DNA of 52,984 nucleotides from Dehalococcoidia bacterium (GTDB taxonomy: Bacteria > Chloroflexota > Dehalococcoidia > UBA2979), in contig JAIBBD010000008.1 of the NCBI GenBank assembly GCA_019694855.1, forward strand, positions 1 to 52,984. The letters run 5' to 3'. The position numbers and the translations under genes are program-made. Each line of letters begins with the position of its first letter. Within the stretch, counting starts at the first letter, position 1. The notes under the pieces were generated by a model. It was not told the DNA's origin and made no database searches. It saw only the letters and a list, made by a program, of their open reading frames with translations. Of this stretch, positions 8,318 to 52,886 are shown piece by piece.

Positions 8318-8333
8318 GGTGACGTTTGTCACC
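8318..8333. promoter_or_regulatory. Palindrome GGTGAC-GTTT-GTCACC, candidate operator
   Basis: Six-base perfect arms at 8318-8323 and 8328-8333 with a 4-base spacer, in the 245-base region between the DUF5671 operon (minus) and the PAS-protein/cation-ATPase genes (plus). The core GTGAC-N4-GTCAC differs by one base from the two GGGAC-N4-GTCAC sites upstream of the DevR/DosR-like regulator gene. It also fits a CRP/FNR-type half-site pair (GTGA-N6-TCAC), so the binding protein is not certain. Confidence 0.5.
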
Positions 8334-8471: not shown

Positions 8472-9116
8472 GTGACTGGGCAGGGTTCGCCGGCAGCCAA
8501 TACCGCTCTGCTCGAGGCGATCGTAGAGTCCGCCCCCGACGGAATCCTCGTCGTAGACTCTGACGCACGGATTCACCTCGCGAACCGGCAAGCGGAAACG
8601 CTATTCCAGTACCCCCGTGACCAGCTCATTGGCGAGCCCCTGCACCGGCTGCTGCCGGCTCGCTACCACGCCAGCCACCTTCGAGCGGTGGATGCGTTTG
8701 GCCGCCAGCCCACGATGCGTCCCATGGGCTCCGGCCTGCACATCGTCGCGCAACGCCGTGACGGCACGGAGTTCGCCGCCGACATTGCTCTCAGCCCGGT
8801 GACGACCCCCACTGGCTCCTTCGTCATCGCGTCCGTGCGCGACGTCTCGAGTCACCAGCTTCTGCAGCAGGAGCATCAGCAGCTTTCCGACCGCGTGCGC
8901 GTGCACTCGGAGCGGGAGCGGGCGGCACTGGGCCTGCAGGACTCGCTCATCCAGGTTTCGTATGGCGTAGGCCTCAACCTCATGAAGGCGAAGGAGCTCG
9001 TCGGCGGGTCGAGCTCCGACGCTGGGCAGGTGCTCGACGAGGCAATCGAGGAGTTGAACAACCTGATCCTCCGGGTGCGGCGGCTAATCCTCGACATCTC
9101 CGGGGCCGTCGAATAG
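8472..9116 (+). CDS. PAS protein with degenerate HisKA_3 helix and no ATPase domain
   Basis: A 214-residue soluble protein. A PAS domain (about 13-125) is followed by a coiled-coil and a helical region (about 128-212). That region aligns with the dimerisation helices of the intact kinase at 13880-14905: RERAALGLQDSLIQVSYGVGL here versus RERIARDLHDGVMQSIYAVGL there. The phospho-acceptor His is Gln156 in this protein, and it ends where an ATPase domain would begin. It therefore cannot act as a normal kinase; it may be a sensor that heterodimerises with the intact kinase. The start is taken as the GTG at 8472, matching the paralogue's start; longer frames look non-coding. The P2-type ATPase follows after 10 bases. 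Confidence 0.78.
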   Translation: MTGQGSPAANTALLEAIVESAPDGILVVDSDARIHLANRQAETLFQYPRDQLIGEPLHRLLPARYHASHLRAVDAFGRQPTMRPMGSGLHIVAQRRDGTEFAADIALSPVTTPTGSFVIASVRDVSSHQLLQQEHQQLSDRVRVHSERERAALGLQDSLIQVSYGVGLNLMKAKELVGGSSSDAGQVLDEAIEELNNLILRVRRLILDISGAVE

Positions 9117-9126
9117 CTCGTCTCCC

Positions 9127-11799
9127 ATGCGCCCGGCGTATCGTCGAGCGATGAGCAAGCGCGAGCTCGGCTCCGAGGATTCCCACCGGCAGGCAGCGCC
9201 GGAGGGCCTGCCGGACCCTCGCAGCCTCGCCCCCAAGCTCGCGGGGTTGAGCCCTGCGGACCGTTTTCGCCGGCTGGACTCGACGCCAAGCGGGCTGTCC
9301 TCAGGGGAGGTAAGGGCTCGCCGCGAGCGTGACGGCTGGAACGACCCCGTGGCGCCAGCGGCGCGGCATCGCCTCGTGCCGCTGCTGCGCAACTTCACGC
9401 ACACCCTCGCGCTGCTGCTGTGGTTCGCGGCCGGGCTCGCGCTCGCGGCGCGCATCTACGAACTGGCGTTTGCCGTCGTCGCCGTGATCGCGGTGAACGG
9501 CGTGTTCGCAGCGGCGCAGGAGTATCGCGCCGAGCAGGTCGTCGAGGGCCTGATGCGGCGGGTCGCCGTGCGCTCACGCGTGCTCCGAGACGGGACATGG
9601 CAGGTGCTGCCGGCGCGCGACCTCGTGCGCGGCGACGTGGTGGCGCTGGCGGCGGGGGACATCGTGCCGGCCGACGGCGTGCTCGTCGAGGGCGACGAAG
9701 TGACGCTCGACCTCTCGATGATCACGGGCGAGACCGTCCCGGTCGGGCGGACGCCTGAAGTCGCCCCCGCGGAGCCCGAGGCGCACGTGAGCGAGGTGCC
9801 GGCGATCGCGCCAGCGGGCGCTGCCGTCGTCACCGGGTCAGCAACCGCGCTGGTTTGGGCGACCGGGCCAACGAGCACCCTCGGGCAGATCGCGTCGCTC
9901 GTCGAAAGTGTGCAGCGAGGCGAGTCGACCCTCGAGCGGCAGGTGCGCGCGTTGTCCTGGACGACCGCCGTGATCGCCGTGCTCACCGGGACGGGGACGC
10001 TTGCCCTCGCCACAGCGTTCACGGACACGTCATTCGTGTCGGCGCTCACCTTTGCGACGGGCGTCATCGTGGCGCTCGTGCCGGAGGGCATGCTGCCCAC
10101 CCTGAGTGTGGCGCTTGCGATCGGCGCGCGGCGGATGGCCGAACGCGGCGCCGCGGTACGTCGGCTCGCGGCGGTTGAGATCGTCGGGTCCGCGACGGTC
10201 ATCTGCACGGACAAGACCGGCACCCTGACGGAGAACGTCCTGTCCGTCCTCGGCGTGGACGGGGTCGATGGGCAGGCGGTCCGCGCCAGCACCCGCGCGG
10301 GCCTGGCGGCCGGCCTGTGCAACAACGCACGCATCGAGGGCGATGGACGCTTCACCGGCGACCCGATCGACGTGGCGCTGGCCGAATGGATGAGGGTGGG
10401 CGGCGTGGACCTCGAAGCGCTGCGTGCGCGATCGCCGCGGCTCAGCGAGACGCCCTTCGATGCTCACCTCCGCTTGATGACGACCACCCATCTCGTCGAC
10501 GGGCACGCCACCGAGTTCATCAAGGGCGCGCCCGAGGCGGTGCTGGCCACACTGGAGACCGAACCCACCCCGGCGCTTCGGGCCGCGCTCGACGCGGCCG
10601 CCGAGGCGGGCGAGCGCGTGCTCCTCCTGGCGAGCCGGCCGGAGGGCTCTCCCGCACACATCGAGGGGTTAGTGCGCTTCTTTGACCCACCGCGCCACGA
10701 AGTGCCGGGAGCGATCGCGGCCTGCCGGGCCGCAGGCATCGGCGTGGTGATGCTCACGGGAGACCATCCGGCGACCGCGCGCTTTGTGGCGTCGCAGGTC
10801 GGGCTCGAGGGCGACGGAGGCCTTCCCGTGATCGAGGGCGCGACCCTCGACCGGATGGGCGACCAGGCGGTGATGCGTGTGCTGCGCGGGAACGCGATCT
10901 TCGCGCGCATTCATCCGGAGCAGAAGTTGCGCATCGTCAGACTGCTGCGTCAGTCGGGCGCAGTTGTGGTGGTGACAGGAGACGGCATCAACGACGCCCC
11001 CGCGCTGCGCGCCGCCGACGTCGGCGTCGCCATGGGCCGGCGAGGCACCGAGGTGGCCAAGCAGGCGGCGGACATCGTGCTCGCCGACGACAACTTCGCC
11101 ACCCTCGTCGCGGCGATCGAGGAGGGGCGCTCCCTGAAGCGGAACATCCGGCGCTTCGTGAGCTACGTGTTCACGAGCAACGTCGCCGAGGTGATGCCGT
11201 TCCTCTGCTACGTCTTCCTGCAGGTGCCGCTGCCGCTGGCAGTGATCCAGGCGCTCGCCATCGACGTGGGGACGGACCTTGCGCCCGCGCTGGCGCTCGG
11301 TGCGGAACCACCGGCGGCAGCCACCATGCAGTCGCCGCCGGAATTGCCGGGCCGGCCCCTGATGACGCGGCGGCTCGCGACGCGAACCTTCCTCGTGTTT
11401 GGCCTCATCGAGGCGGCCCTCGGGCTGGCCGCCTACCTCGCGTTCTACGCGCACGCTGGCTGGCGCCCGTTCGCGGACCTCGATGACCTGCTCGTGCACG
11501 AGGCGTCCACGCTGACCTTCCTTGGCATCGTGGGCGGACAGGTCGGATGCCTGTTCGCACAACGGGACGGCTCGTTGCGGCGGCGCCTGTCGTTCCGCTC
11601 GAACCGGCTGCTCGGGATCGGGCTCGCCTCGGAGCTGCTGCTGGCCCCCGTGCTTGTCTACGTCCCCGGCCTCAACCAGACGTTCCAGATGGCGCCGGTG
11701 CCGCCGCCATGGCTGCTCGCTATCCCCGTCTGCGCTATCGCGTTTCTCGGATTCGATCTCCTGCGCCGGTCCATCGAGGGGCGCGCCGAGGAGGGATAG
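9127..11799 (+). CDS. P2-type cation-transporting ATPase (Ca2+/Na+-pump like)
   Basis: An 890-residue complete P-type ATPase. Marks are an N-terminal cation-ATPase domain, the TGE loop (200-202), helix 4 with VPEGM (about 318-322) as in P2 pumps, phosphorylated Asp362 in DKTGTLTEN, the TGD loop, and the hinge GDGINDAP from 618. Four or more C-terminal helices follow. There are no CPC or HP signatures of heavy-metal pumps, so a Ca2+, Na+/K+ or Mg2+-like substrate is likelier. ATG 9127 and ATG 9151 are both possible starts; neither has a strong ribosome site. It follows the PAS protein by 10 bases and precedes a universal stress protein. This combination recalls the ctpF and stress-protein members of the mycobacterial DosR regulon. 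Confidence 0.92.
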   Translation: MRPAYRRAMSKRELGSEDSHRQAAPEGLPDPRSLAPKLAGLSPADRFRRLDSTPSGLSSGEVRARRERDGWNDPVAPAARHRLVPLLRNFTHTLALLLWFAAGLALAARIYELAFAVVAVIAVNGVFAAAQEYRAEQVVEGLMRRVAVRSRVLRDGTWQVLPARDLVRGDVVALAAGDIVPADGVLVEGDEVTLDLSMITGETVPVGRTPEVAPAEPEAHVSEVPAIAPAGAAVVTGSATALVWATGPTSTLGQIASLVESVQRGESTLERQVRALSWTTAVIAVLTGTGTLALATAFTDTSFVSALTFATGVIVALVPEGMLPTLSVALAIGARRMAERGAAVRRLAAVEIVGSATVICTDKTGTLTENVLSVLGVDGVDGQAVRASTRAGLAAGLCNNARIEGDGRFTGDPIDVALAEWMRVGGVDLEALRARSPRLSETPFDAHLRLMTTTHLVDGHATEFIKGAPEAVLATLETEPTPALRAALDAAAEAGERVLLLASRPEGSPAHIEGLVRFFDPPRHEVPGAIAACRAAGIGVVMLTGDHPATARFVASQVGLEGDGGLPVIEGATLDRMGDQAVMRVLRGNAIFARIHPEQKLRIVRLLRQSGAVVVVTGDGINDAPALRAADVGVAMGRRGTEVAKQAADIVLADDNFATLVAAIEEGRSLKRNIRRFVSYVFTSNVAEVMPFLCYVFLQVPLPLAVIQALAIDVGTDLAPALALGAEPPAAATMQSPPELPGRPLMTRRLATRTFLVFGLIEAALGLAAYLAFYAHAGWRPFADLDDLLVHEASTLTFLGIVGGQVGCLFAQRDGSLRRRLSFRSNRLLGIGLASELLLAPVLVYVPGLNQTFQMAPVPPPWLLAIPVCAIAFLGFDLLRRSIEGRAEEG

Positions 11800-11823
11800 C
11801 GCGGGACGCATCCCGAGGGCCGG

Positions 11824-11837
11824 GGGACGTTCGGCGG
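11824..11837 (+). promoter_or_regulatory. Degenerate GGGAC-GTTC-G site upstream of stress-protein gene
   Basis: GGGACGTTCG at 11824-11833 is identical to the first ten bases of the site at 32268, but the second half-site decays (GCGG instead of TCAC). It lies about 60 bases before the universal stress protein start. Weak on its own. Confidence 0.25.
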
Positions 11838-11895
11838 TGCGAGCCGCTCGGTCGAGCGCGATGATGGCAACTGCGGACGGGAGAGGAGTGAGTGC

Positions 11896-12369
11896 ATGTA
11901 CCGGAAGATCCTGATGACCCACGACGGCTCAGAGCTGGCGTCCGAGGCGGTCGCTCATGTGGTGGAGCTGGCCCGCCTCGGGCAGTCCGAGGTCCTCTTG
12001 CTGCGCGTCACGGACACGCCGGGACAGACCCTGACGCGCCTCGGCGGCGGGTGGGCAGCGGCTGGTGAGGTCGCGGCCGAGGCGGCGGTTGAAGAGACGC
12101 AGCGACACGACACGGAGGCCGTGGCGCAGCTGTCGGATCTACGCGAACAGCTGCACGCTCGCGGCGTCGAGCGCGTGTCGATCGAAGTCGTCGAGGGAGC
12201 CCCCGGACCCGCGATCATTGAGGTCGCCGCACAGCAGGGCTGTGACCTCATCGTGATGGCGACGCACGGACGATCCGGACTCGGCCGAGCGGTGCTGGGA
12301 TCGGTGGCGGACCACGTGATCCGCCACTCCTCGATCCCGGTGCTGCTGGTGCGGCCGGCCTCCGCCTAG
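11896..12369 (+). CDS. Universal stress protein (UspA family)
   Basis: A 157-residue single USP domain. It opens with MYRKILMTHDGSELA, and near the C-terminus has the nucleotide-binding pattern ATHGRSGLGRAVLGSVADHV (THG, nine residues, GS), followed by the PVLLVRP strand. This pattern predicts an ATP-binding USP. A purine-rich ribosome site (GGAGAGGAG) precedes the ATG. Its TAG shares the 4-base palindrome CTAG (12366-12369) with the stop of the convergent USP gene, so the two genes end on the same bases with no terminator between. It is probably co-expressed with the cation ATPase 96 bases upstream. Confidence 0.93.
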   Translation: MYRKILMTHDGSELASEAVAHVVELARLGQSEVLLLRVTDTPGQTLTRLGGGWAAAGEVAAEAAVEETQRHDTEAVAQLSDLREQLHARGVERVSIEVVEGAPGPAIIEVAAQQGCDLIVMATHGRSGLGRAVLGSVADHVIRHSSIPVLLVRPASA

Positions 12370-12851
12370 CCGGAGCGCGAACCCGCGAGGATCAGCGCGC
12401 GGTTTCCCGCGTGGCGGAGCACGTACTCGGCGACCGACCCGACGACGTCGCGGCCAAGGCCGCCGTGCCCGCGAGTCGCCATCACGATGGCGTCCACGTC
12501 GTGGCGGTCGGCCGCGTCGAGGATGGCGTTGCCAGGTACCCCTTCACCGACCTCGGTCGTGACGGCGGCGCCGACGGCGCGGAGTTGCTCGGCGGCGGCT
12601 TCGAGTTCCTCGTGGGCGCGGTCACGCTGCATGAAATGCTGGCTCTCGGCGAGTTCGGCGATCGCCTCGGGGCGGCCGCCTGTGAACTCAAACGACTCGC
12701 CAATGAACCGGTTACGCAACGCCGCGACCGTGTCGATCGCCTGGAACACGACGACCTCGGTGCTCGAGCCCTGGACGAGCGCGATGGCCTGCGGGATCGC
12801 TGAACGGGACAGCTCGGAACCATCCAGCGTCAGCATGATGCGTCGATACAT
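12366..12851 (-). CDS. Universal stress protein (UspA family)
   Basis: A 161-residue USP. It opens MYRRIMLTLDGSELS, has a longer central insertion than its neighbours (about residues 45-75), and the binding loop ATRGHGGLGRDVVGS (TRG, nine residues, GS). The start at 12851 has the ribosome site AAGGAGGA just upstream; the seven extra residues up to 12872 do not. It is the last gene of a minus-strand run (PAS kinase, GyrI-like, small Trp-rich protein, USP). Its sequence is clearly different from the convergent USP, so they are not a recent duplication. Confidence 0.93.
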   Translation of the reverse strand: MYRRIMLTLDGSELSRSAIPQAIALVQGSSTEVVVFQAIDTVAALRNRFIGESFEFTGGRPEAIAELAESQHFMQRDRAHEELEAAAEQLRAVGAAVTTEVGEGVPGNAILDAADRHDVDAIVMATRGHGGLGRDVVGSVAEYVLRHAGNRALILAGSRSG

Positions 12852-12911
12852 CCGATCCTCCTTCGACTGCAACGAGATCGTGCAGCCCTCGGCAGCGGCC
12901 GGGCAGGTGCA

Positions 12912-13879: not shown

Positions 13880-14905
13880 TCAGGCGGAGGCGGGCGCCTC
13901 GAGGGGCACGTGGACGAGCACGGCGGTGCCGGAGCCCGGTTCGCTCCGGAGCTCGATCGACCCGCCCAACGACGCGACACGGTCGCGCATGTTGCGCAGG
14001 CCCATGTGCCCCCGCTCGACGGCCGCGCCGGTATCGAACCCGCAGCCGTCGTCGCGCACCTCGAGCAGGACGCCATCCGCAGCGGTGGTGAGCGCGACGC
14101 TGGCGTGGTGGGCGCCCGAGTGCTTGCGCACGTTCGTCAGCGCCTCGCGGGCGAGGTGATAGACGGCCTGGGTCAACGCGTCGCTCAGACTCGGGAGGTC
14201 GTCGGCAACGTCCAGGGCGACCTCGAGGTCAGATCCGGCGTGGGTTTCCGCGATCACCTCGCGCAGCAACGTAGTGACGTCCGAATCGAGCCGTTCGAGC
14301 GACAGCCCCATGACGTAGCGGCGGATGTCGTCGATGACCTGGCGCAGCTCCCCAACCGCCTCGTCAAGAGCGGGGACGGCCTCGGGCGCGGCGGCCTCGA
14401 GCGTCGTGCGCGTTTCGATGAGGCTGAGGCCAACGGCATAGATCGATTGCATGACGCCGTCGTGCAGGTCTCGGGCGATGCGTTCGCGGTCCCGCTGCAG
14501 TTCGGCCTGGGCCACGAGCTGACGGCGTTCCTCCTCGAGCGCCCGACGCTCAGTCATGTCCCGCACGATCGCGGTGACGTAGACGCCTTCTTCAGTAGGA
14601 ATGGAACCGAGGCTAATCTCGACGGGCAGTTCGCTGCCGTCGCTGCGCTCGGCGAACAGCTCGAGGCCGGTGCCCATCGGCCTCGCGACGGGGTGCGCAT
14701 GATAGGCCGCCTGGTGCTGGTGATGCGTAGCGCGGAAACGCGCCGGCACCAGCTCGTCGACCGTGCGGCCGACGAGTTCGTCCGCCTGGTAGCCGAAGAG
14801 ACGCTCAGCCTGGCCGTTCACGAACACGATCCGGCCGCTTGGGTGGACGAGGAGGATGCCGTCCGGGGCGAGGTCAACCAGGGCCTGAAGCAGGACGCTA
14901 TCCAC
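13880..14905 (-). CDS. PAS sensor histidine kinase, NarL/DevS class (HisKA_3)
   Basis: A 341-residue soluble kinase. The PAS domain spans about 5-118; a coiled-coil linker (120-140) follows. The HisKA_3 domain has phospho-acceptor His148 in DLHDGVMQ. The ATPase domain has the N box around Asn258 (EALTNVRKH), Asp286 (DDGCGF) and the MGLRNM lid. There are no membrane segments. Tandem His61/His62 in the PAS domain fall where FixL-type PAS domains hold the haem-ligating His, so gas or redox sensing is possible but unproven. The start is a GTG at 14905; longer frames run into the divergent CoA-transferase promoter. Its natural partner would be a LuxR/NarL-type regulator, and the only one in the window is at 32445. 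Confidence 0.9.
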   Translation of the reverse strand: MDSVLLQALVDLAPDGILLVHPSGRIVFVNGQAERLFGYQADELVGRTVDELVPARFRATHHQHQAAYHAHPVARPMGTGLELFAERSDGSELPVEISLGSIPTEEGVYVTAIVRDMTERRALEEERRQLVAQAELQRDRERIARDLHDGVMQSIYAVGLSLIETRTTLEAAAPEAVPALDEAVGELRQVIDDIRRYVMGLSLERLDSDVTTLLREVIAETHAGSDLEVALDVADDLPSLSDALTQAVYHLAREALTNVRKHSGAHHASVALTTAADGVLLEVRDDGCGFDTGAAVERGHMGLRNMRDRVASLGGSIELRSEPGSGTAVLVHVPLEAPASA

Positions 14906-15049
14906 GATGGCGGTTCCCGGTGTGCAGTTGCCCGATGGTGCTCTGCCACGAGTGTACCGGCTGCCGACGGCAAGCACCCGGCGTCTCCGCGGCGGCTCGT
15001 GTAGGGTGTGCGCGGAGAGCTTGCCCCGCCGAGGAAAGGCCACCGTGCC

Positions 15050-16336
15050 ATGAGGTCCGTGTCCGCGAGCGAAGCACTGGAGGCGGTGCAGAGTGGCCAG
15101 CGCGTGTATTTGCACGGCGGCGCCGCGACGCCCACACCGCTGCTATTCGCGCTCGCGGACCGCGCTCGTCGTCTCAGCGGAGTTGAGACCGTTTCGCTGC
15201 ACCTCGACGGCCCCGCGCCGCACGTGGCACCGGAACTGGCGGGGCACCTGCGACACAACGCGCTGTTCATCGGCGCGAACGTCCGGGCCGCCGTCGGCGA
15301 AGGACGAGCCGACTTCACCCCGGTCTTCCTCTCCGACATCCCTCAACTCTTTGCCGGCGGGACGCTGCCCATCGATGTCGCGTTGATCCAGGTGTCCCCG
15401 CCCGACGCGCATGGCTACTGCTCGCTCGGCGTCTCCGTGGATGTGGCGCACTCCGCGGTCCATCACGCCGACGTCGTCGTGGCCGAGGTCAACCGCCAGA
15501 TGCCGCGCAGCCTCGGCCGTTCCTTCCTGCATGTTTCGCAGATCGACCTCGCGGTGGAGACAGACCGGCCGCTCGTCGAGGTCCCCGCCCCACCCCTCGA
15601 TGACCGCTACTACCAGATCGGACGGCACGTGGCGTCACTGATCGAGGACGGGGCGACGCTGCAGCTCGGCATCGGCGCCGTGGCGGAGGCAGTACTGCTG
15701 CAACTCTTCGACCATCGTGACCTGGGCGTGCACACGGAGATGTTCTCGGATGGCGTCGTCGACCTCTTCGAGGCGGGAGTGATCACCGGCGCGAAGAAGC
15801 GCCGCCACACCGGGGAGATCGTGACGTCGTTCGTTCAGGGGACGCGCCGGCTATACGACTTCGTCGACGACAACCCGGTCGTCTCGATGCACCCCTCGGA
15901 CTACACGAACAACCCGGCCGTCATCGCAAGCCACGTCGAGATGGTCGCCGTGAACTCAGCGATCGAGGTGGACCTGACGGGACAGGTGTGCGCCGATTCC
16001 ATCGGCGGACGGTTCTACAGCGGCATCGGCGGGCAGCTCGACTTCATCCGTGGGGCCGCGCGAGCAGTGCAGGGACGGCCGATCATCGCGCTGCCGTCGA
16101 CCACCGCTGACGGGCGCATTTCGCGCATCGTGAGCCGCCTGGCGCCGGGCGCGGGCGTAGTCACCACGCGCGGCGACGTGCACTTCGTGGTCACCGAGCA
16201 CGGCATCGCCGAGCTGCACGGCCGGAACGTCCGGGAACGCGGACAGGCGTTGTTGCGGGTCGCCCATCCAGCGTTCCGCGACCAGCTCGCTCGTGAGGCA
16301 TTCGAGACATACGGGATGCGGCTCAGCGGCGCCTGA
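15050..16336 (+). CDS. Acetyl-CoA hydrolase/transferase family (4-hydroxybutyrate CoA-transferase like)
   Basis: A 428-residue family I CoA transferase. It has both domains: the N-terminal half with LHGGAATPTPL, and the C-terminal half with HTEMFSDGVVDL, where Glu230 is the likely CoA-thioester-forming residue. GIGGQLDFIRGA and VTEHGIAELHG complete the signature. The ATG at 15050 has the site GAGGAAAGG upstream. Likely reaction: moving CoA between acetyl-CoA and a short-chain acid, or hydrolysing acetyl-CoA. It is divergent from the PAS kinase and followed after 100 bases by a CPBP protease, with no obvious pathway partner adjacent, so the acceptor cannot be named. Confidence 0.9.
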   Translation: MRSVSASEALEAVQSGQRVYLHGGAATPTPLLFALADRARRLSGVETVSLHLDGPAPHVAPELAGHLRHNALFIGANVRAAVGEGRADFTPVFLSDIPQLFAGGTLPIDVALIQVSPPDAHGYCSLGVSVDVAHSAVHHADVVVAEVNRQMPRSLGRSFLHVSQIDLAVETDRPLVEVPAPPLDDRYYQIGRHVASLIEDGATLQLGIGAVAEAVLLQLFDHRDLGVHTEMFSDGVVDLFEAGVITGAKKRRHTGEIVTSFVQGTRRLYDFVDDNPVVSMHPSDYTNNPAVIASHVEMVAVNSAIEVDLTGQVCADSIGGRFYSGIGGQLDFIRGAARAVQGRPIIALPSTTADGRISRIVSRLAPGAGVVTTRGDVHFVVTEHGIAELHGRNVRERGQALLRVAHPAFRDQLAREAFETYGMRLSGA

Positions 16337-31493: not shown

Positions 31494-31970
31494 TCAGCGC
31501 CCGACTGGAGCCCGGAGCGTTGCCGCCCAGGCAGCCGCGCGTTCAAGTTCGCCCGGCCTGAGCGGGCCCTCTTTGCCCTCCACGAGGAAGCCTTCCGGCG
31601 GCGCGGTGAGATGGGCGCCCTTTGCCTCGAGCGCCTTCGCGATCTTCGGCGCGGCGTAGCCGATCGTCCGCATGAGCAGCCGCAACGCAAACCCGCGCTC
31701 ACCCATGGGAAGGCGGGTGTCGAACGCGGCCGCGCGAGTCGAGGCCAGCGCGTTCGATTCGAGCGAGGTCAGCAGCTTCGTCACACCGGCTAGCGGACGC
31801 CCACCCTGGGTCGGCGAGCCCACGACGAGCAGTTCGACACCCGCCAGGTCGCTCGCCGCGAGCGCGCTCGCACGCTCGACCGCCGTTTCGGGCCCAAGCG
31901 CCTCCGCCACGGCTCGTGCGACGGCCTCGGTGTTGCCCCACTGCGACTCGTAGACGATGAGTGTGCGCAT
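31494..31970 (-). CDS. Flavodoxin-domain protein
   Basis: A 158-residue protein with a flavodoxin fold. The phosphate-binding loop is YESQWGNTEAVA, and the second FMN loop region is VVGSPTQGGRPL. The C-terminal part has PEGFLVEGKEGPL. The length equals a free-standing flavodoxin, an FMN electron carrier. The start is taken at MRTLIVYES (31970); longer frames overlap the small upstream gene. It is 10 bases after that gene, so the two are co-transcribed. It might be the electron donor for a flavin-dependent partner, but none is adjacent. Confidence 0.87.
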   Translation of the reverse strand: MRTLIVYESQWGNTEAVARAVAEALGPETAVERASALAASDLAGVELLVVGSPTQGGRPLAGVTKLLTSLESNALASTRAAAFDTRLPMGERGFALRLLMRTIGYAAPKIAKALEAKGAHLTAPPEGFLVEGKEGPLRPGELERAAAWAATLRAPVGR

Positions 31971-31980
31971 AGCCCCGGCC

Positions 31981-32181
31981 CTAGCGTTTCGGATGCCCGC
32001 GTTCGAGGCGGGTTCGTTCGGGCTCATGGACCTGCTCGTGCAACTCGTGCGCTGCGGGTGGGCGAAACTCGGACGTCTGTTCCTGCTCGCGCGGGACGAC
32101 CGGCCCGGCCTTGCCGCCGAACCCAATCGACTGCAGCACACCGGTCATCGACTTCAACAGCTCGGTTAGTCCGCGTGCCAT
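31981..32181 (-). CDS. Small hypothetical protein, Glu/His-rich tail
   Basis: A 66-residue soluble protein. It starts MARGLTELLKSMTGVLQSIG, then has a Gly-rich turn and a charged C-terminal half rich in Glu, His, Gln and Arg. A very strong ribosome site (GGGAGGGA) lies just before the ATG. It shares an operon with flavodoxin and is divergent from the DevR-like regulator across 263 bases. That region holds two GGGAC-N4-GTCAC sites. I recognise no family. Confidence 0.6.
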   Translation of the reverse strand: MARGLTELLKSMTGVLQSIGFGGKAGPVVPREQEQTSEFRPPAAHELHEQVHEPERTRLERGHPKR

Positions 32182-32267
32182 GGCTTCCCTCCCCCGTCGC
32201 GTATCACCACAGCTGTAGGATCGCGCGGCGGCACAGGCGTTGCAGGTGCGAAACGTCGCCGGCGGGC

Positions 32268-32281
32268 GGGACGTTCGTCAC
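32268..32281 (+). promoter_or_regulatory. DosR-box-like site 1: GGGAC-GTTC-GTCAC
   Basis: An interrupted dyad in the divergent region upstream of the DevR/DosR-like regulator and the flavodoxin operon. It matches the mycobacterial DosR box core GGGAC-N4-GTCCC except one base. A second copy with identical half-sites is 101 bases further on. Confidence 0.5.
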
Positions 32282-32300
32282 GCCTCGAAAACGGGCGAGG

Positions 32301-32322
32301 CCCGCTGCCAGCCCGCTGCCAG
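32301..32322 (+). repeat. 11-base perfect tandem repeat
   Basis: CCCGCTGCCAG occurs twice back to back (32301-32311, 32312-32322) between the two DosR-box-like sites. It may only set spacing, or be chance slippage. Confidence 0.7.
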
Positions 32323-32368
32323 CGCGGGGGCCAATTCAGTCGGGAGGGCCATCAGTCCTGATTCCGGG

Positions 32369-32382
32369 GGGACTTCCGTCAC
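32369..32382 (+). promoter_or_regulatory. DosR-box-like site 2: GGGAC-TTCC-GTCAC
   Basis: Same half-sites and spacing as the site at 32268, 62 bases before the regulator start codon. The position suits activation or autoregulation of the regulator's own promoter. No clear sigma70 boxes are seen nearby. Confidence 0.5.
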
Positions 32383-32444
32383 GTGGCTCCCGAGGCGCGA
32401 GCAGCGAGACTGCCTGATAACGATAATCGGAGGAGGACCGTGCC

Positions 32445-33125
32445 GTGCCGGGAGGGGGACTCGTGACCACCGACCAGGAGCTGCGAGTGTTGCTGGTGGA
32501 CGACCACGCCGTCGTTCGGCGCGGTCTGCGGTCGCTGCTGACGCAGCCCGGCACGGCCATCGTGGGGGAGGCGGACACCGTCGCCTCGGCCGTGCAGGAG
32601 GCGATCCGGCTGAGCCCGGATGTCGTCGTCATGGACCTGCGGCTCCCGGATGGCTCGGGCATCGAGGCATGCCGGGAGATCCGCGCCGCCAAGCCGGACA
32701 CGAAAGTGCTGATCCTGACCTCGTACGCCGACGAGGACGCCCTCTTTTCCGCGGTCATGGCCGGCGCCTCAGGCTACGTCCTGAAAGACCTTGACCCGAG
32801 CCGGCTGCAGGACGCCGTGCGCACCGTCGGCGAGGGAGGCTCACTCCTCGACCCGAGCCTCACGACGACGCTCTTCTCGCGCCTGCGCCGGGGCATGACC
32901 GGCCATCCGGCCGACGACGTCTTCTCGGTGCTCACGCCCCAGGAGGACCGCATCCTCGACTTCATCGCCGACGGCCTCACGAACCGCGAGATCGCGGAGC
33001 GGCTCCACCTCAGCGAGAAAACCGTGAAGAACTACGTATCCGAGATCTACTCGAAGCTGAACGTCGAGCGGCGCTCGCAGGCGGCGACCATGGCGACCGA
33101 GCGCCGGCTGCGCAAACAGCAGTGA
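32445..33125 (+). CDS. NarL/LuxR-type response regulator, DevR/DosR-like
   Basis: A 226-residue regulator. In the receiver domain (about 12-130) are Asp19/Asp20, phospho-acceptor Asp64 in VMDLRLPDGSGIE, and Lys114. A long linker (130-160) precedes a LuxR helix-turn-helix (163-222) with GLTNREIAERLHLSEKTVKNYVS, cited in two parts: GLTNREIAERL and HLSEKTVKNYVS. From memory, the segments RLPDG.GIE.CR, ILTSY..., AGASGYV.KD, GGSLLD and EKTVKNYVS..., ERR.QAA..ATE follow mycobacterial DosR closely. The start GTG at 32445 has AGGAGG eight bases upstream. No kinase is adjacent; the PAS kinase at 13880 is the candidate partner. Two DosR-box-like sites precede it. Confidence 0.93.
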   Translation: MPGGGLVTTDQELRVLLVDDHAVVRRGLRSLLTQPGTAIVGEADTVASAVQEAIRLSPDVVVMDLRLPDGSGIEACREIRAAKPDTKVLILTSYADEDALFSAVMAGASGYVLKDLDPSRLQDAVRTVGEGGSLLDPSLTTTLFSRLRRGMTGHPADDVFSVLTPQEDRILDFIADGLTNREIAERLHLSEKTVKNYVSEIYSKLNVERRSQAATMATERRLRKQQ

Positions 33126-34209: not shown

Positions 34210-34665
34210 ATGTTTCGCAAGGTACTCGTGACGGTGGACCGTTCACCCTTCGCCGAGGCGGCCCTCGACCGCGTCCCTGACATCAACGCCGAGGCCGTCG
34301 TCATCCTGCACGTCGTCGAGCCGGTGGCGAGCATCCTCGCGCGCGAGGTGCCCGCCTTCGATGTTCCGCCCGACATCGCGACGAGCATCAGCCAGGCCGA
34401 ACGAGAAGCCGCGGCGGCATACCTCTCGGAAGCCGCGACGAAACTGCGCGGCGCGGGGGTCGGCCAGGTCAGCACGCTGATGCGCGAAGGGCGTCCCGGG
34501 CCAGAGATCGTCGCCGCCGCACGCGAGGAAGGCTGCGACCTGGTCGTGATGAGTACGCACGGCCGCTCCGGCATCCGCCGAGCGCTGCTGGGCTCGGTGG
34601 CGAACCACGTCACGACGCACGTCGAAGACGGCGCGATCCTCCTCGTGCGGCCGCCGCAGGACTGA
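34210..34665 (+). CDS. Universal stress protein (UspA family)
   Basis: A 151-residue USP: start MFRKVLVTVDRSPFAE, binding loop STHGRSGIRRALLGSVANHV (THG, nine residues, GS), ending ILLVRPP. The residue after VTVD is Arg instead of the usual Gly-Ser. A strong GACAGGAGGA site precedes the ATG. Upstream, GGGACTACG at 34131 resembles a single DosR-box half-site. It is monocistronic, with a strong terminator downstream. Confidence 0.93.
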   Translation: MFRKVLVTVDRSPFAEAALDRVPDINAEAVVILHVVEPVASILAREVPAFDVPPDIATSISQAEREAAAAYLSEAATKLRGAGVGQVSTLMREGRPGPEIVAAAREEGCDLVVMSTHGRSGIRRALLGSVANHVTTHVEDGAILLVRPPQD

Positions 34666-48313: not shown

Positions 48314-48976
48314 TCAGCGGCGGATGCCGACCTCGTCCAGGTGGTCGAGGAGGTCCGCCGGGTCGTCATAGACGCGGTAGGCGCCCGCTGCTTGCAGCTC
48401 GTCGCGACCGTAGCCCCCTGAGAGCAGCCCGACCCCGAGCGCGTGCGCCCGCCGCGCCGCCAGCAGGTCCCAGACGCTGTCCCCCACGATCACGCTGTCC
48501 TCGACCGGCTGTCCGAGGCGGCGCGCTGCCTCGATGAAGAGGTCGGGGTCTGGCTTGGCGCGAGACACATCGTCCCGCGTCACCAGCAGGCCGGTCCCGG
48601 GCGCCGGCAGCAGGTCGAGGACGGGGCGGGCCGTCGCCAGGCGGCCGCTCGTGGCGACCGTCCAGGGCACCGCCTCCGAGGTCAGGTACCCCAGCAGTTC
48701 GACCGCGCCGGGGAGGGGGCGGATGGAGCCAACGCGCGCGAGGTACTCCTCGCGATGCACGTCTTGCACCCGCCGCAGCGTCGCGTCATCGAGGTCGCGT
48801 CCCGCCTCGCGGAGGAGGGCGTGGGCGAGGAGGCCACCGCTCATGCCGATCCGCCGGTGAATGCGCCAGACGGCAAGCTCGATGCCGGCCGCGCGCAGGC
48901 CGGCCTGCCAGGCGACCACGTGCTGATACACGCTGTCGACCAGTGTCCCATCGAGGTCGAAGATCACCGCTGTCAT
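48314..48976 (-). CDS. HAD-superfamily phosphatase (beta-phosphoglucomutase/phosphoglycolate-phosphatase-like)
   Basis: A 220-residue HAD hydrolase with motif I FDLDGTLVDS (nucleophile Asp7, acid/base Asp9), a helical cap, motif II around VATSGRL, motif III Lys in RAKPDPDLF, and motif IV VIVGDSVWDL. The cap size fits small-phosphate substrates such as phosphoglycolate or sugar phosphates. The start is taken at the ATG at 48976; a GTG at 48985 adds three residues. It ends 10 bases from the convergent binding-protein gene, and is divergent from the alcohol dehydrogenase. Confidence 0.9.
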   Translation of the reverse strand: MTAVIFDLDGTLVDSVYQHVVAWQAGLRAAGIELAVWRIHRRIGMSGGLLAHALLREAGRDLDDATLRRVQDVHREEYLARVGSIRPLPGAVELLGYLTSEAVPWTVATSGRLATARPVLDLLPAPGTGLLVTRDDVSRAKPDPDLFIEAARRLGQPVEDSVIVGDSVWDLLAARRAHALGVGLLSGGYGRDELQAAGAYRVYDDPADLLDHLDEVGIRR

Positions 48977-49055
48977 CGCTTCCACGATACGCCCGGCCGA
49001 TCCCGGTCAGCCGCGCGCACCCGAGGTACCCTGCGGTCGGAGGAGGCCGACAACG

Positions 49056-50054
49056 ATGCTGGCTCAGCTGCTGAGACGCCCGCGTTCGATCGACCTCGCG
49101 CCACTCACGATCGAGGAGATCGAAGCGCCGGCGCCCGGGCCCGGAGAGCTACGCCTGCGCCTCGAGGCGTGCGCGGTCTGCCGCACTGACCTGCAGATCG
49201 TTGAGGGCGACCTCGCGCTGCATCGAGCGCCGCTGGTGCCGGGCCACCAGGCGGTAGGCATCGTCGAGGCGATTGGCCCGGGCGTGGAGGGCTGGGCGGC
49301 GGGTGACCGCGCCGGCGTCGGCTGGCTGGGCGACGTCTGCGGTTCCTGTGAGTACTGCACCACCGGCCGCGAGAACCTCTGTGAGTCCGCGACCTTCACG
49401 GGATGGGACCGCGACGGCGGTTATGCGCAGGCCATGCTCGTGCGGGCCGGCTTCGCGCTCCGCCTGCCGGCCGCCCTCGAAGCCGAAGCGCTGGCGCCGT
49501 TGCTGTGCGGCGGCGTCATCGGCTATCGCTCGCTGCGGGTGTCGGGAATCGGACCGGGCCAGCGGCTTGGGCTGTACGGCTTCGGCGCGTCCGCGTCGCT
49601 GGCGATCCAGGTGGCCGTGCACATGGGATGCGAGGTCTTCGTCGTGACGCGCTCCACCGAGGAGCAACGGCGAGCGCGTGCCCTCGGCGCTGCATGGGCC
49701 GGCGCCCTCGACGAGCAACCTCCGGCAAGACTGCACGCGGCGGTGACCTTCGCCCCGGTTGGGGAGGTCGTCCTTGCCGCGTTGCGCGCGCTCGCGCCCG
49801 GGGGCACGGTGGCGATCAACGCCATCCACCTCGACCGCGTGCCAGAGTTCTCGTACGACTGGCTGTGGCGAGAGCGCAGTCTGCGCAGCGTGGCGAACTT
49901 CACGCGGGCAGACGCGCGCGAATTCCTCGCGCTCGCAGCCGAGATCCCGCTGCGGACCGAGACGCAGCCGTTCGCGCTGGCGCAGGCGAACGAGGCGCTG
50001 CGAGCGCTGCGGCAGGGTGAGCTGCGCGGCACGGCCGTGCTTATGATCGAGTAG
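49056..50054 (+). CDS. Zinc-dependent alcohol dehydrogenase
   Basis: A 332-residue medium-chain dehydrogenase. Catalytic-zinc ligands are in CAVCRTDLQ and PGHQAVG; the structural-zinc lobe is CGSCEYCTTGRENLC with four Cys. The Rossmann motif LYGFGASASLA binds NAD(P). The overall motif set resembles the AdhA-type group that oxidises short-chain alcohols or reduces aldehydes. The ATG has CGGAGGAGG upstream. A universal stress protein gene follows after 43 bases on the same strand, so the two are probably co-transcribed. Confidence 0.93.
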   Translation: MLAQLLRRPRSIDLAPLTIEEIEAPAPGPGELRLRLEACAVCRTDLQIVEGDLALHRAPLVPGHQAVGIVEAIGPGVEGWAAGDRAGVGWLGDVCGSCEYCTTGRENLCESATFTGWDRDGGYAQAMLVRAGFALRLPAALEAEALAPLLCGGVIGYRSLRVSGIGPGQRLGLYGFGASASLAIQVAVHMGCEVFVVTRSTEEQRRARALGAAWAGALDEQPPARLHAAVTFAPVGEVVLAALRALAPGGTVAINAIHLDRVPEFSYDWLWRERSLRSVANFTRADAREFLALAAEIPLRTETQPFALAQANEALRALRQGELRGTAVLMIE

Positions 50055-50097
50055 GCGGGCGGTCACCTCGGTCGTCCGGATGGGATGCGGGGAAGCG

Positions 50098-50520
50098 ATG
50101 TACGAGAAGCTGCTCTACCCGGTCGACGGCTCGGACCTGTCCCTCGTCGCGTTGCCACATGTCGCGGAGATCGCGCGCGCCTCGGGCGCGATCGTGACGG
50201 TGTTGCAGGCCGTCGAGATCGTGACCGAGGCCGACGCGATCACGGTGCCGGAGCGCCGAGGCGAGGCAGACGAGTCCATCCACCGCATCGTGGCGAGCCT
50301 GCGGGACCAGGGGGTGACGGTCGCTGCCCCGCGTGTGATCGAGGGTGACGCCGGGCGCTCGATCGTCGAGGCCGCGGACGCCGATGCAGCGGACCTCGTG
50401 ATCATGGCGACGCACGGGCGATCCGGGGTGCGCAGGCTCGCGCTTGGCTCGGTCGCGGACTACGTGGTTGGGCACGCATCGTGCCCGGTGCTGCTCATCC
50501 GGCCCCCTCAGGACGGGTAG
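50098..50520 (+). CDS. Universal stress protein (UspA family)
   Basis: A 140-residue USP: MYEKLLYPVDGSDLS at the start, binding loop ATHGRSGVRRLALGSVADYV (THG, nine residues, GS) and VLLIRPP at the end. I start at the ATG at 50098; the ATG at 50080 adds six residues without better context. It is the shortest of the four USPs here, lacking the central insertion. Its end overlaps the end of the convergent GH65 gene by 13 bases. Confidence 0.92.
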   Translation: MYEKLLYPVDGSDLSLVALPHVAEIARASGAIVTVLQAVEIVTEADAITVPERRGEADESIHRIVASLRDQGVTVAAPRVIEGDAGRSIVEAADADAADLVIMATHGRSGVRRLALGSVADYVVGHASCPVLLIRPPQDG

Positions 50521-52886
50521 CTCGTCCCCTCGGGGCCGGGCCGCACGTGGAGCGGCTCGCGGCCCTTCGGCTGGCTCGGCCGCACCATCGGCGGCAGTGG
50601 CGGAATCGCGAGCACCATCGGGGTCCGCTCGCTCAGCGTGAAGCGCTGACCGTGGTGCAGCAGATCGAGCGGCGGCCCGGATCGCAGCTCGTAGCGCGCC
50701 TCTCCCGAGGTCACCTCCACCTGCAGCTGACGTCCCCGGAAGCGGACGCGGAACGCGAGGCGCACGAGGCCCGGCGGCACGCGCGGGGCGAACCCGATCT
50801 GGCCTTGCTGGCAGCGCATGCCGCCGCAGCCCGCGACAAGCAGTGACCAGACGCCCGCGAGCGCCGCGAGGTGCAGGCCGTTCCGGGTGTTGTCGTGCAG
50901 GTCGCCAAGGTCGAGCAGGGCAGTCTCCCGCAGGTAGTCGTAGGCAAGGTCGAGCTGCCCCACCTCGGCCGCGAGCACGCCCTGCGTGGCGGCGGACAAC
51001 GAGGAGTCGCGGACCGTCAGCGGTTCGTAGTACGCGAAGTTGCGCTGCTTCTCCTCGAAGGTGAAGGCATCGCCGCGGAGTTGCATCGCCAGGACGAGGT
51101 CAGCCTGCTTCAGGACCTGCTTTCGGTAGAGGTCGAAGTACGGGAAGTGCAGGAACAGCGGGTACTGGTCCGGGCGCGTCGCCTCGAAGTCCCAGACCTC
51201 GAGGGTGGTGTATCCATCAGCCTGCGGATGCACCCCGAGCTCAGGGTCGTAGGGGATGAACATGTCGCGCGCCGCGTCACGCCACGACGCTGCCTCTTCC
51301 TGGTCGACGCCGAGCGCCTGCGCCTCCGCCTCGTGGTGCTGCACGGCGTCCGCCGCCGCCGAGAGGTTCTGCTGGGCCATGAGATTCGTGTAGACGTTGT
51401 TGTTCTGCAGGGCGCTGTACTCGTCCGGGCCGGTCACGCCCGAGATGCGGAACTGCCCGGTGCGGTCGTGGTGGCCGAGCGAGCGCCAGAGGCGCGCCGT
51501 CTCCACCAGCAGCTCGAGGCCCGCCTCGCGCATGAACGCCTCGTCCTCGGTCGCCTCCATGTACCAGAGGACGGCCGCCGCGATGTCCGCGTTGATGTGG
51601 AACGCCGCGGTCCCGGCCGGCCAGTATCCCGAGCACTCGGCGCCTGCGATCGTGCGCCAGGGGAAGGCGGCCCCCGCGAGCCCGAGCGCGCGGGCGCGCT
51701 GCCGCGCGATCGGCAACGTCGAGTGGCGCCAGCGCAGCTCATGCGCCGCGACCTCGGGTGCGGTGTAGATCAGGACCGGCAGCACGAACGTCTCGCTGTC
51801 CCAGAATGCGTGCCCGTCGTAGCCCTGCCCGGTCAGGCCCTTCGCCGGTATGGCTCGCCGCTCCGCCCGGGCGCTGGCCTGCAGCATCTGGAAGAGCGCG
51901 AAGCGAGCGGCCTGTTCGACAGTCGGGTCGCCTTCCACCTCGATCAGCGCATCGTCCCAGAAGGCATCGAGGTAGGCTCGCTGCTCCTCGATCAGGCCTT
52001 CCCAGCCCGTGTAGCTCGCCGCGGTCAGCGCCGCGGCGACCTGGTCGCGCAGCGCCTGTCGAGAGCGCACGCCCGACCAGCCGTAGGCCAGGAACTTCAC
52101 GATGCGCAGCCGCTCTCCGGGCGCCAGCACCGTGGTGACCGTGACCCGCCCGATGTCGGGCGAGGTCTCCGCCGAAACATCTACCTTCTGCGGGGCCTCC
52201 ACGAGGTGGTCCATCGCGGCGGCCATGCGCAGACCGCTTCCGGCAGTGTGGTGTACGAGGACGACTCGCCCCGGATCGCGGGCGGCATCGTCCTCGGCGA
52301 CGAGGGGTGAGCGCAATGCTTCGGCCACGCGCGGGTCGCCGGTCGGCGCCGCGAGCGGCTCGTTCGCCACGAGTTCCGACTGCACGACGACGCGCGCCGC
52401 CGCGCCGACCGCTTCCACCTCGAAGCTGATGGCGGCGACCGCGCGCTGCGTGAACGACACCAGCCGTGTCGACGATACCTTCACCCGCTGTCCCGCGGGC
52501 GACTCCCATTCGACCTCGCGCTGCAGTGTGCCGGCCCGCAGGTCGAGGACGCGCTCGTGGTTGTGGAGCGTGCCATAGCGGATGTCGAACGGCTCGTCGT
52601 CGACCAGCAGCCGCAGCAGCTTCCCGTTGGTGACGTTGATCAGGGCCTGGCCCGACTCGGGATAGCCGTAGCCGCCCTCAGCGTACGGAAGCGGGCGCAG
52701 CTCGTAGAAGCCGTTCAGGTAGGTGCCGGGGATGCCGACTGGCTCGCCCTCATCGAGGTTGCCGCGGAGGCCGATGTGCCCGTTTGAGAGCGCGAAGATC
52801 GACTCGGTCTGCGCGAGCACCTCCAGGTCGAGGCCACACTCGCGGATACACCACGGGTCGGACGTGAAGCACTCGTGCGTGATCAT
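50508..52886 (-). CDS. GH65 family glycoside phosphorylase/hydrolase (trehalose/maltose/kojibiose type)
   Basis: A 792-residue GH65 protein. An N-terminal beta-sandwich (about 1-270) holds IFALSNGHIGLRGNLDEG, cited as NGHIGLRGN, the family start. The (alpha/alpha)6 barrel has KGLTGQGYDGHAFWDSE and GVTGPDEY with catalytic acid Glu489. A C-terminal beta-sandwich ends the protein. GH65 enzymes cleave alpha-glucosidic disaccharides such as trehalose or maltose with phosphate, giving beta-glucose 1-phosphate. The start ATG overlaps the stop of an upstream HAD gene (ATGA), fitting the usual pairing with beta-phosphoglucomutase. The exact disaccharide cannot be told. Confidence 0.94.
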   Translation of the reverse strand: MITHECFTSDPWCIRECGLDLEVLAQTESIFALSNGHIGLRGNLDEGEPVGIPGTYLNGFYELRPLPYAEGGYGYPESGQALINVTNGKLLRLLVDDEPFDIRYGTLHNHERVLDLRAGTLQREVEWESPAGQRVKVSSTRLVSFTQRAVAAISFEVEAVGAAARVVVQSELVANEPLAAPTGDPRVAEALRSPLVAEDDAARDPGRVVLVHHTAGSGLRMAAAMDHLVEAPQKVDVSAETSPDIGRVTVTTVLAPGERLRIVKFLAYGWSGVRSRQALRDQVAAALTAASYTGWEGLIEEQRAYLDAFWDDALIEVEGDPTVEQAARFALFQMLQASARAERRAIPAKGLTGQGYDGHAFWDSETFVLPVLIYTAPEVAAHELRWRHSTLPIARQRARALGLAGAAFPWRTIAGAECSGYWPAGTAAFHINADIAAAVLWYMEATEDEAFMREAGLELLVETARLWRSLGHHDRTGQFRISGVTGPDEYSALQNNNVYTNLMAQQNLSAAADAVQHHEAEAQALGVDQEEAASWRDAARDMFIPYDPELGVHPQADGYTTLEVWDFEATRPDQYPLFLHFPYFDLYRKQVLKQADLVLAMQLRGDAFTFEEKQRNFAYYEPLTVRDSSLSAATQGVLAAEVGQLDLAYDYLRETALLDLGDLHDNTRNGLHLAALAGVWSLLVAGCGGMRCQQGQIGFAPRVPPGLVRLAFRVRFRGRQLQVEVTSGEARYELRSGPPLDLLHHGQRFTLSERTPMVLAIPPLPPMVRPSQPKGREPLHVRPGPEGTSYPS

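Follow-up and report, generated by a model that had tools for sequence, protein, structure and literature searches.

The question raised by this locus is whether two palindromic sites upstream of a response regulator gene in a Dehalococcoidia bacterium (Chloroflexota) are operators of that regulator and, if so, whether the circuit is of the DosR (DevR) type. Work on DosR has centred on mycobacteria and, under the name OsdR, on Streptomyces; no paper linking DosR with Chloroflexi was found in the literature searched. The window referred to below is the whole stretch of DNA that was analysed (52,984 nucleotides), and its relevant features are collected in Table 1.

Two sites in a divergent intergenic region

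The motif GGGAC-N4-GTCAC occurs twice in the 263-bp gap (32182-32444) that splits a minus-strand small-protein/flavodoxin pair from the plus-strand response regulator, both times in noncoding DNA, and the 53-kb window holds no further match to GGGACNNNNGTCAC. The positions of the two sites, as well as the divergent operon on their other side, are exactly those given in an earlier note made from the sequence alone. Box 1 is located 177 bp before the regulator start and 87 bp before the start of the divergent small protein; box 2 lies 76 bp before the regulator start, which is a GTG at 32445 with GAGGAGG at 32430. A promoter scan of the gap gave no sigma-70 match (see Table 1 for a possible −10 element). 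The peptide TRLERGHPKR ends small proteins at box-containing promoters in two genera, namely the one encoded at 31981-32181 and one at L133 (G020:C188, 3052-3330); outside this peptide the two proteins are unlike each other.

Table 1. Features of the window discussed in the text
Feature	Positions	Strand	Remarks
Flavodoxin	31494..31970	-	Second gene of the divergent transcript; Flavodoxin_3/Flavodoxin_1 matches
66-aa small protein	31981..32181	-	First gene of the divergent transcript; without Pfam match
DosR-type box 1	32268..32281	.	GGGACGTTCGTCAC; fits GKGACSWWSGTCMC
DosR-type box 2	32369..32382	.	GGGACTTCCGTCAC; centre TTCC, not SWWS
Possible −10 element	32422..32427	+	GATAAT, by eye only; alternative GATAAC at 32416-32421
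DosR/DevR-type response regulator	32445..33125	+	Receiver and GerE/LuxR HTH; recognition helix KTVKNYVS
Third candidate box	8319..8332	.	GTGACGTTTGTCAC; between divergent genes 8226- and 8472+
PAS protein	8472..9116	+	FixL-like PAS domain; without HATPase domain and H-box histidine
PAS-HisKA_3-HATPase histidine kinase	13880..15115	-	Candidate partner of the regulator

The sites had been spotted by eye, and in dinucleotide-shuffled versions of the whole window GGGACNNNNGTCAC was found 0.20 times on average, with two matches reached in 2 of 100 shuffles; both points leave some room for a chance coincidence in GC-rich DNA. However, a first-order Markov simulation of the gap gave a mean of 0.0007 such sites against the two found, and none of 20,000 simulated gaps contained two, in agreement with the earlier claim that the pair is improbable by chance. 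Considering also the boxes at orthologs in other genera and the family-wide intergenic enrichment described below, we regard coincidence as extremely improbable.

The regulator and its recognition helix

A domain search gave Response_reg and GerE matches for the regulator, and its top PDB match over the whole length was M. tuberculosis DevR/DosR (195 bits), followed by VraR (139 bits). The phospho-acceptor D of its VVMDLRLPDG stretch aligns with VAVLDVRLPDG of DosR. The bases bound by DosR are contacted by Lys179, Lys182 and Asn183 (PMC4082495, PMC5861037). These three residues are kept in the window regulator and in every full-length ortholog compared from the same family, as KT[VI]KNYVS, and also in most of the DosR homologs fetched; the set is not kept in the other NarL-type regulators of these genomes that were aligned. 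Orthologs are present in 14 of the 36 genomes sampled from the same family, with 13 relatives at 67-75% identity (one being a contig-end fragment), and the nucleotide pattern for K-T-[VI]-K-N-Y-V has exactly one match per genome in 14 family genomes and none in the other 22. Viral contigs contained no relative of the regulator.

A tree was built from 65 proteins, comprising the family orthologs, actinobacterial homologs, M. tuberculosis DosR and 18 other NarL-type regulators. M. tuberculosis DosR groups with the family proteins and the actinobacterial homologs in a single clade (support 100/100) that excludes the 18 other regulators; within it the family's own regulators form a 100/100 clade near other Chloroflexota sequences. 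Judged by its sequence, the window regulator is a DosR-family protein, and the closeness of its receiver and HTH residues to mycobacterial DosR, noted earlier, is borne out by the best PDB match, the kept base contacts and the clade. One genome (G015) carries a second DosR-like paralog (L064, G015:C298:601-1266), which branches with the ortholog of that genome and has a receiver with a degenerate acidic pocket (ILLIGHPDAEQ).

Boxes across the family

Footprinting yielded the consensus GKGAC-SWWS-GTCMC with flanks that are not conserved; the choice of G or T at position 2 was fixed in advance by the pattern searched for and so says nothing about how freely this position varies. Window box 2 (centre TTCC) and the 8319 site (centre GTTT) are near-matches to this consensus. 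Boxes adjoin orthologs in two genomes of other genera than the window's: in G002, CGGACGAACGTCCC and GTGACCAACGTCCC lie 73 bp apart in the interval that separates the ortholog from a divergent USP gene, and in G025 GGGACGATGGTCCC is found 152 bp before the ortholog. The boxes of a further genome, G005, are GGGACCTTCGTCCC, 98 bp upstream of a PAS kinase gene, and GTGACGAAGGTCAC, 72 bp upstream of a USP gene. These positions make autoregulation the natural reading, with the reservation that the ortholog's own promoter lacks an exact box in roughly half of the cases or more. At actinobacterial and other DosR homologs GKGAC-N4-GTCMC was found at 7 loci, versus 0 for the reversed control, and their GGGAC/GTGAC-type boxes are mostly within about 140 bp upstream. 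The mycobacterial core had been given in the earlier note as GGGAC-N4-GTCCC, rightly, as the consensus string TTSGGGACTWWAGTCCCSAA is found in a DosR-regulon paper (PMC2275270). Each window box indeed has one mismatch to this core, as the note said, but the difference matters little and is normal family variation, since GTCAC/GTGAC variants precede actinobacterial DosR homologs too.

The distribution of GKGAC-SWWS-GTCMC was then compared with that of the reversed pattern, used as a control, in the 36 genomes. The 14 ortholog-bearing genomes contain 48 sites versus 8 for the control, and the 22 genomes without ortholog 18 versus 4. Site numbers differ between the two sets (Mann-Whitney P about 1e-4), also when the seven seed sites that had suggested the motif are left out (P = 0.001) and when the comparison is confined to genomes of at least 2 Mb (P = 0.026). 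Since genomes without the ortholog are smaller on average, part of the association may be due to size or lineage. Within genus g12, genomes with the ortholog have 5 and 6 sites versus 0 without it, and within g8 they have 8 and 3 versus 0. By heuristic gene calls, 25 of 47 sites in ortholog-bearing genomes fall between genes, compared with a 17% background (P = 2e-8; 20 of 40 without the seeds, P = 2e-6), and 5 of 11 in ortholog-lacking genomes other than G020, where the background is 36% and the difference is not significant. At the family level, then, the motif is enriched as the earlier note had anticipated, in intergenic DNA and in ortholog-bearing genomes. Exact counts of GGGACNNNNGTCMC in 60 relatives were also tried as a discriminator and rejected; most matches lie in coding DNA, so the counts failed to tell regulator-bearing genomes from the rest.

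Genome G020 (assembly 90% complete) has seven sites, several of them before USP and cupredoxin genes, and neither an ortholog nor a KTVKNYV regulator was found in it; the ortholog was possibly lost from the assembly. Its boxes with regulon-like targets are at L132, L133 and L135.

Operators of the CRP/FNR family (GTGA-N6-TCAC, the CRP consensus, and TTGAT-N4-ATCAA) overlap with the boxes in palindrome and spacing, and GTGAC...GTCAC contains GTGA-N6-TCAC. The boxes might thus belong to a regulator of that family, with the DosR ortholog merely one of its targets. Respiratory and copper redox targets would suit an FNR/CRP-type activator, the window's genome encodes two strong HTH_Crp_2 proteins, G020 combines Crp proteins and seven sites with the lack of a DosR, and site number tends weakly to follow the presence of Crp (P = 0.07). 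Yet the distribution of the sites does not seem to need a Crp protein: five sites occur in G011, which has no HTH_Crp_2 match, and others in G002, G012 and G017, none of which has a strong one; Crp is present in G008 and G015, which have no sites. Nor are the inner C...G and the GGGAC half features of CRP sites. The former, which CRP does not need, exceeds other inner pairs over the control (48:8 versus 167:80, odds ratio 2.9, P = 0.009), and the latter, unsuited to CRP, makes up half of the half-sites in a search that imposed G or T there. Ownership by a CRP/FNR protein appears very unlikely to us; it keeps some weight on account of the Crp trend and of G020, for which CRP is a better fit than DosR. 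In our view the two window sites most likely serve as operators for the DosR-family regulator next to them, a prediction made with good confidence from sequence comparison.

Predicted targets, sensors and circuit

In the window's own genome, convincing boxes are found at only about four or five promoters. Outside the gap, the third candidate box lies 140 bp before the PAS-protein gene at 8472, GGGACGTTCGTCCC is located 61 bp upstream of an AMP-binding acyl/acetyl-CoA synthetase gene behind an Rrf2 gene (L107), and GTGACGAAAGTCAC is associated with divergent COX2 and cupredoxin genes (L148). An ABC-transporter ATPase is possibly a further target: its promoter (C59:1115, L172) carries GGGACGTTCGGCCC, the best of the single-mismatch sites, and a homologous gene with a box occurs in G020. 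The single-mismatch sites otherwise added little and are mostly coding, so that the regulon in this genome would be small. Copies of the motif outside the window are likewise mostly coding, and one at C12:29829 was rejected as an operator, since it lies in an inverted repeat flanked by convergent genes and looks more like a terminator.

The four USPs and the P-type ATPase of the window have no convincing box, and across this genome the motif is not broadly enriched upstream of genes for stress proteins, ATPases or nitroreductases. The wide regulon of the earlier note is therefore not visible here; of the autoregulated hypoxia/dormancy regulon that it had proposed, autoregulation stands as the natural reading and the breadth does not. 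Its interpretation as a whole is partly supported, being largely right within these limits. Three regions of the window (9127-12872, 34210-34665 and 48314-52886) recall by gene content the Dos/OsdR regions of actinobacteria, with a P-type ATPase, four USPs, a zinc alcohol dehydrogenase beside a USP, a HAD phosphatase and a GH65 enzyme; none of these genes, the last three included, has a convincing box.

Predicted targets in relatives, named from Pfam where available, include a divergent cupredoxin and peroxiredoxin pair in two genomes of one genus (L075, L103), further cupredoxin genes (L106, L135, L076), a divergent thioredoxin-like protein and COX2 pair (L095), and USP genes (L048, L051, L133). 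A box is placed between a divergent molybdopterin oxidoreductase and a PAS/BTAD regulator in two genera (L094:2519, L102:2496), and others precede a PAS kinase gene (L074) and a PAS protein that looks Aer-like (L086). The boxes at L102 and L104 belong to a radical-SAM/SPASM gene; CtaA was rejected as their target, as gene orientation points to the radical-SAM gene. No nitroreductase or alpha-crystallin gene with a box was noticed among the predicted targets. The family target set leans to copper and respiratory redox genes rather than being a copy of the mycobacterial dormancy list.

Orthologs in other genomes adjoin DevS-type GAF or PAS kinases. The kinase beside the G012 ortholog has a DevS-type GAF domain (98 bits) in which HHPPM is kept, and it has relatives in G007, G015 and G025; a search of the window's genome with this kinase at E 1e-30 found none, so no heme-GAF partner of the DosS/DosT type was recovered there. 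The window's candidate partner, the kinase at 13880-15115, has no box at its gene. Alignments of its PAS domain to the heme PAS domains of DosP and FixL score up to 62 bits; a histidine is kept at the position that we take to be the heme ligand, and the arginine presumably located on the oxygen side is not kept. A histidine at this position is not rare in PAS domains generally. The box-preceded PAS protein at 8472-9116 resembles in its architecture the N-terminal half of a HisKA_3 kinase, with LGLQDSL lacking the H-box histidine, and might possibly be a kinase-dead partner of the 13880-15115 kinase.

We propose that an oxygen- or redox-sensing histidine kinase would phosphorylate the conserved receiver aspartate, whereupon the regulator would bind the 14-bp palindrome GKGAC-SWWS-GTCMC through its recognition helix KTVKNYVS and activate its own gene and the divergent small-protein/flavodoxin pair. 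A few more promoters would follow, namely those of the PAS protein at 8472, the COX2/cupredoxin pair and the AMP-binding synthetase. The signal may be low oxygen, NO or redox, and the circuit may also have a role in dormancy. The regulator could instead bind these sites in response to another signal, such as cell-envelope stress, nitrate or copper. Such a signal would be consistent with several cupredoxins among the targets and with the lack of boxes noticed at nitroreductase or alpha-crystallin genes; the DevS-type GAF kinase adjoining the G012 ortholog, the FixL/DosP-like PAS in the window's kinase and the COX2 and molybdopterin-oxidoreductase targets argue against it, and we think it unlikely. 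The circuit probably responds to low oxygen or to a similar redox cue, because the regulator is a relative of DosR, has boxes before its own gene and in relatives is accompanied by boxes before oxygen and copper-redox genes.

M. tuberculosis DosR, a NarL-family response regulator with the box GGGACTWWAGTCCC, and the window regulator have in common the clade, the base-contact residues, a 5-4-5 palindrome with a GGGAC half-site, paired boxes before their own gene and USP genes nearby. In contrast, the family's box allows G or T at position 2 and has an S-W-W-S middle, the predicted targets are mainly copper and respiratory redox genes with a regulon that looks small in the window's genome, and the sensors are DevS-type GAF kinases in some genomes and PAS kinases in others. 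The nearest precedent is OsdR of Streptomyces. In S. coelicolor the DosR-type OsdR/OsdK system has the site AGGGCCGATCGGCCCT, and its targets include USPs, NarG2 and a zinc alcohol dehydrogenase (PMC5069765). Like OsdR, the window regulator is a DosR-type protein outside mycobacteria with a 14-bp core and an S-W-W-S middle, and one listed OsdR site contains GGGACGATCGTCCC. Unlike it, the Streptomyces system prefers the half-site GGGCC over GKGAC and has developmental targets that are not seen here.

What is new is a DosR-type system in an unexpected phylum, with targets centred on respiratory and copper redox proteins. Being a well-supported DosR clade that has a box of its own, these regulators of uncultured Chloroflexota provide a comparison group for the origin of dormancy regulons, and the predicted regulon (cupredoxins, COX2, peroxiredoxin, molybdopterin oxidoreductase and USPs) is testable in hard-to-grow organisms. 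Tentatively, and with more doubt than conviction, the circuit in Dehalococcoidia could be read as a distinct regulon in which oxygen sensing is coupled to copper-protein and terminal-oxidase respiration; the sensors would be kinases of the GAF or heme-PAS type and would include a PAS partner that is kinase-dead and among the targets itself. If this were true, the mycobacterial dormancy regulon would be an offshoot of an older respiratory switch common to Chloroflexota and Actinomycetota.
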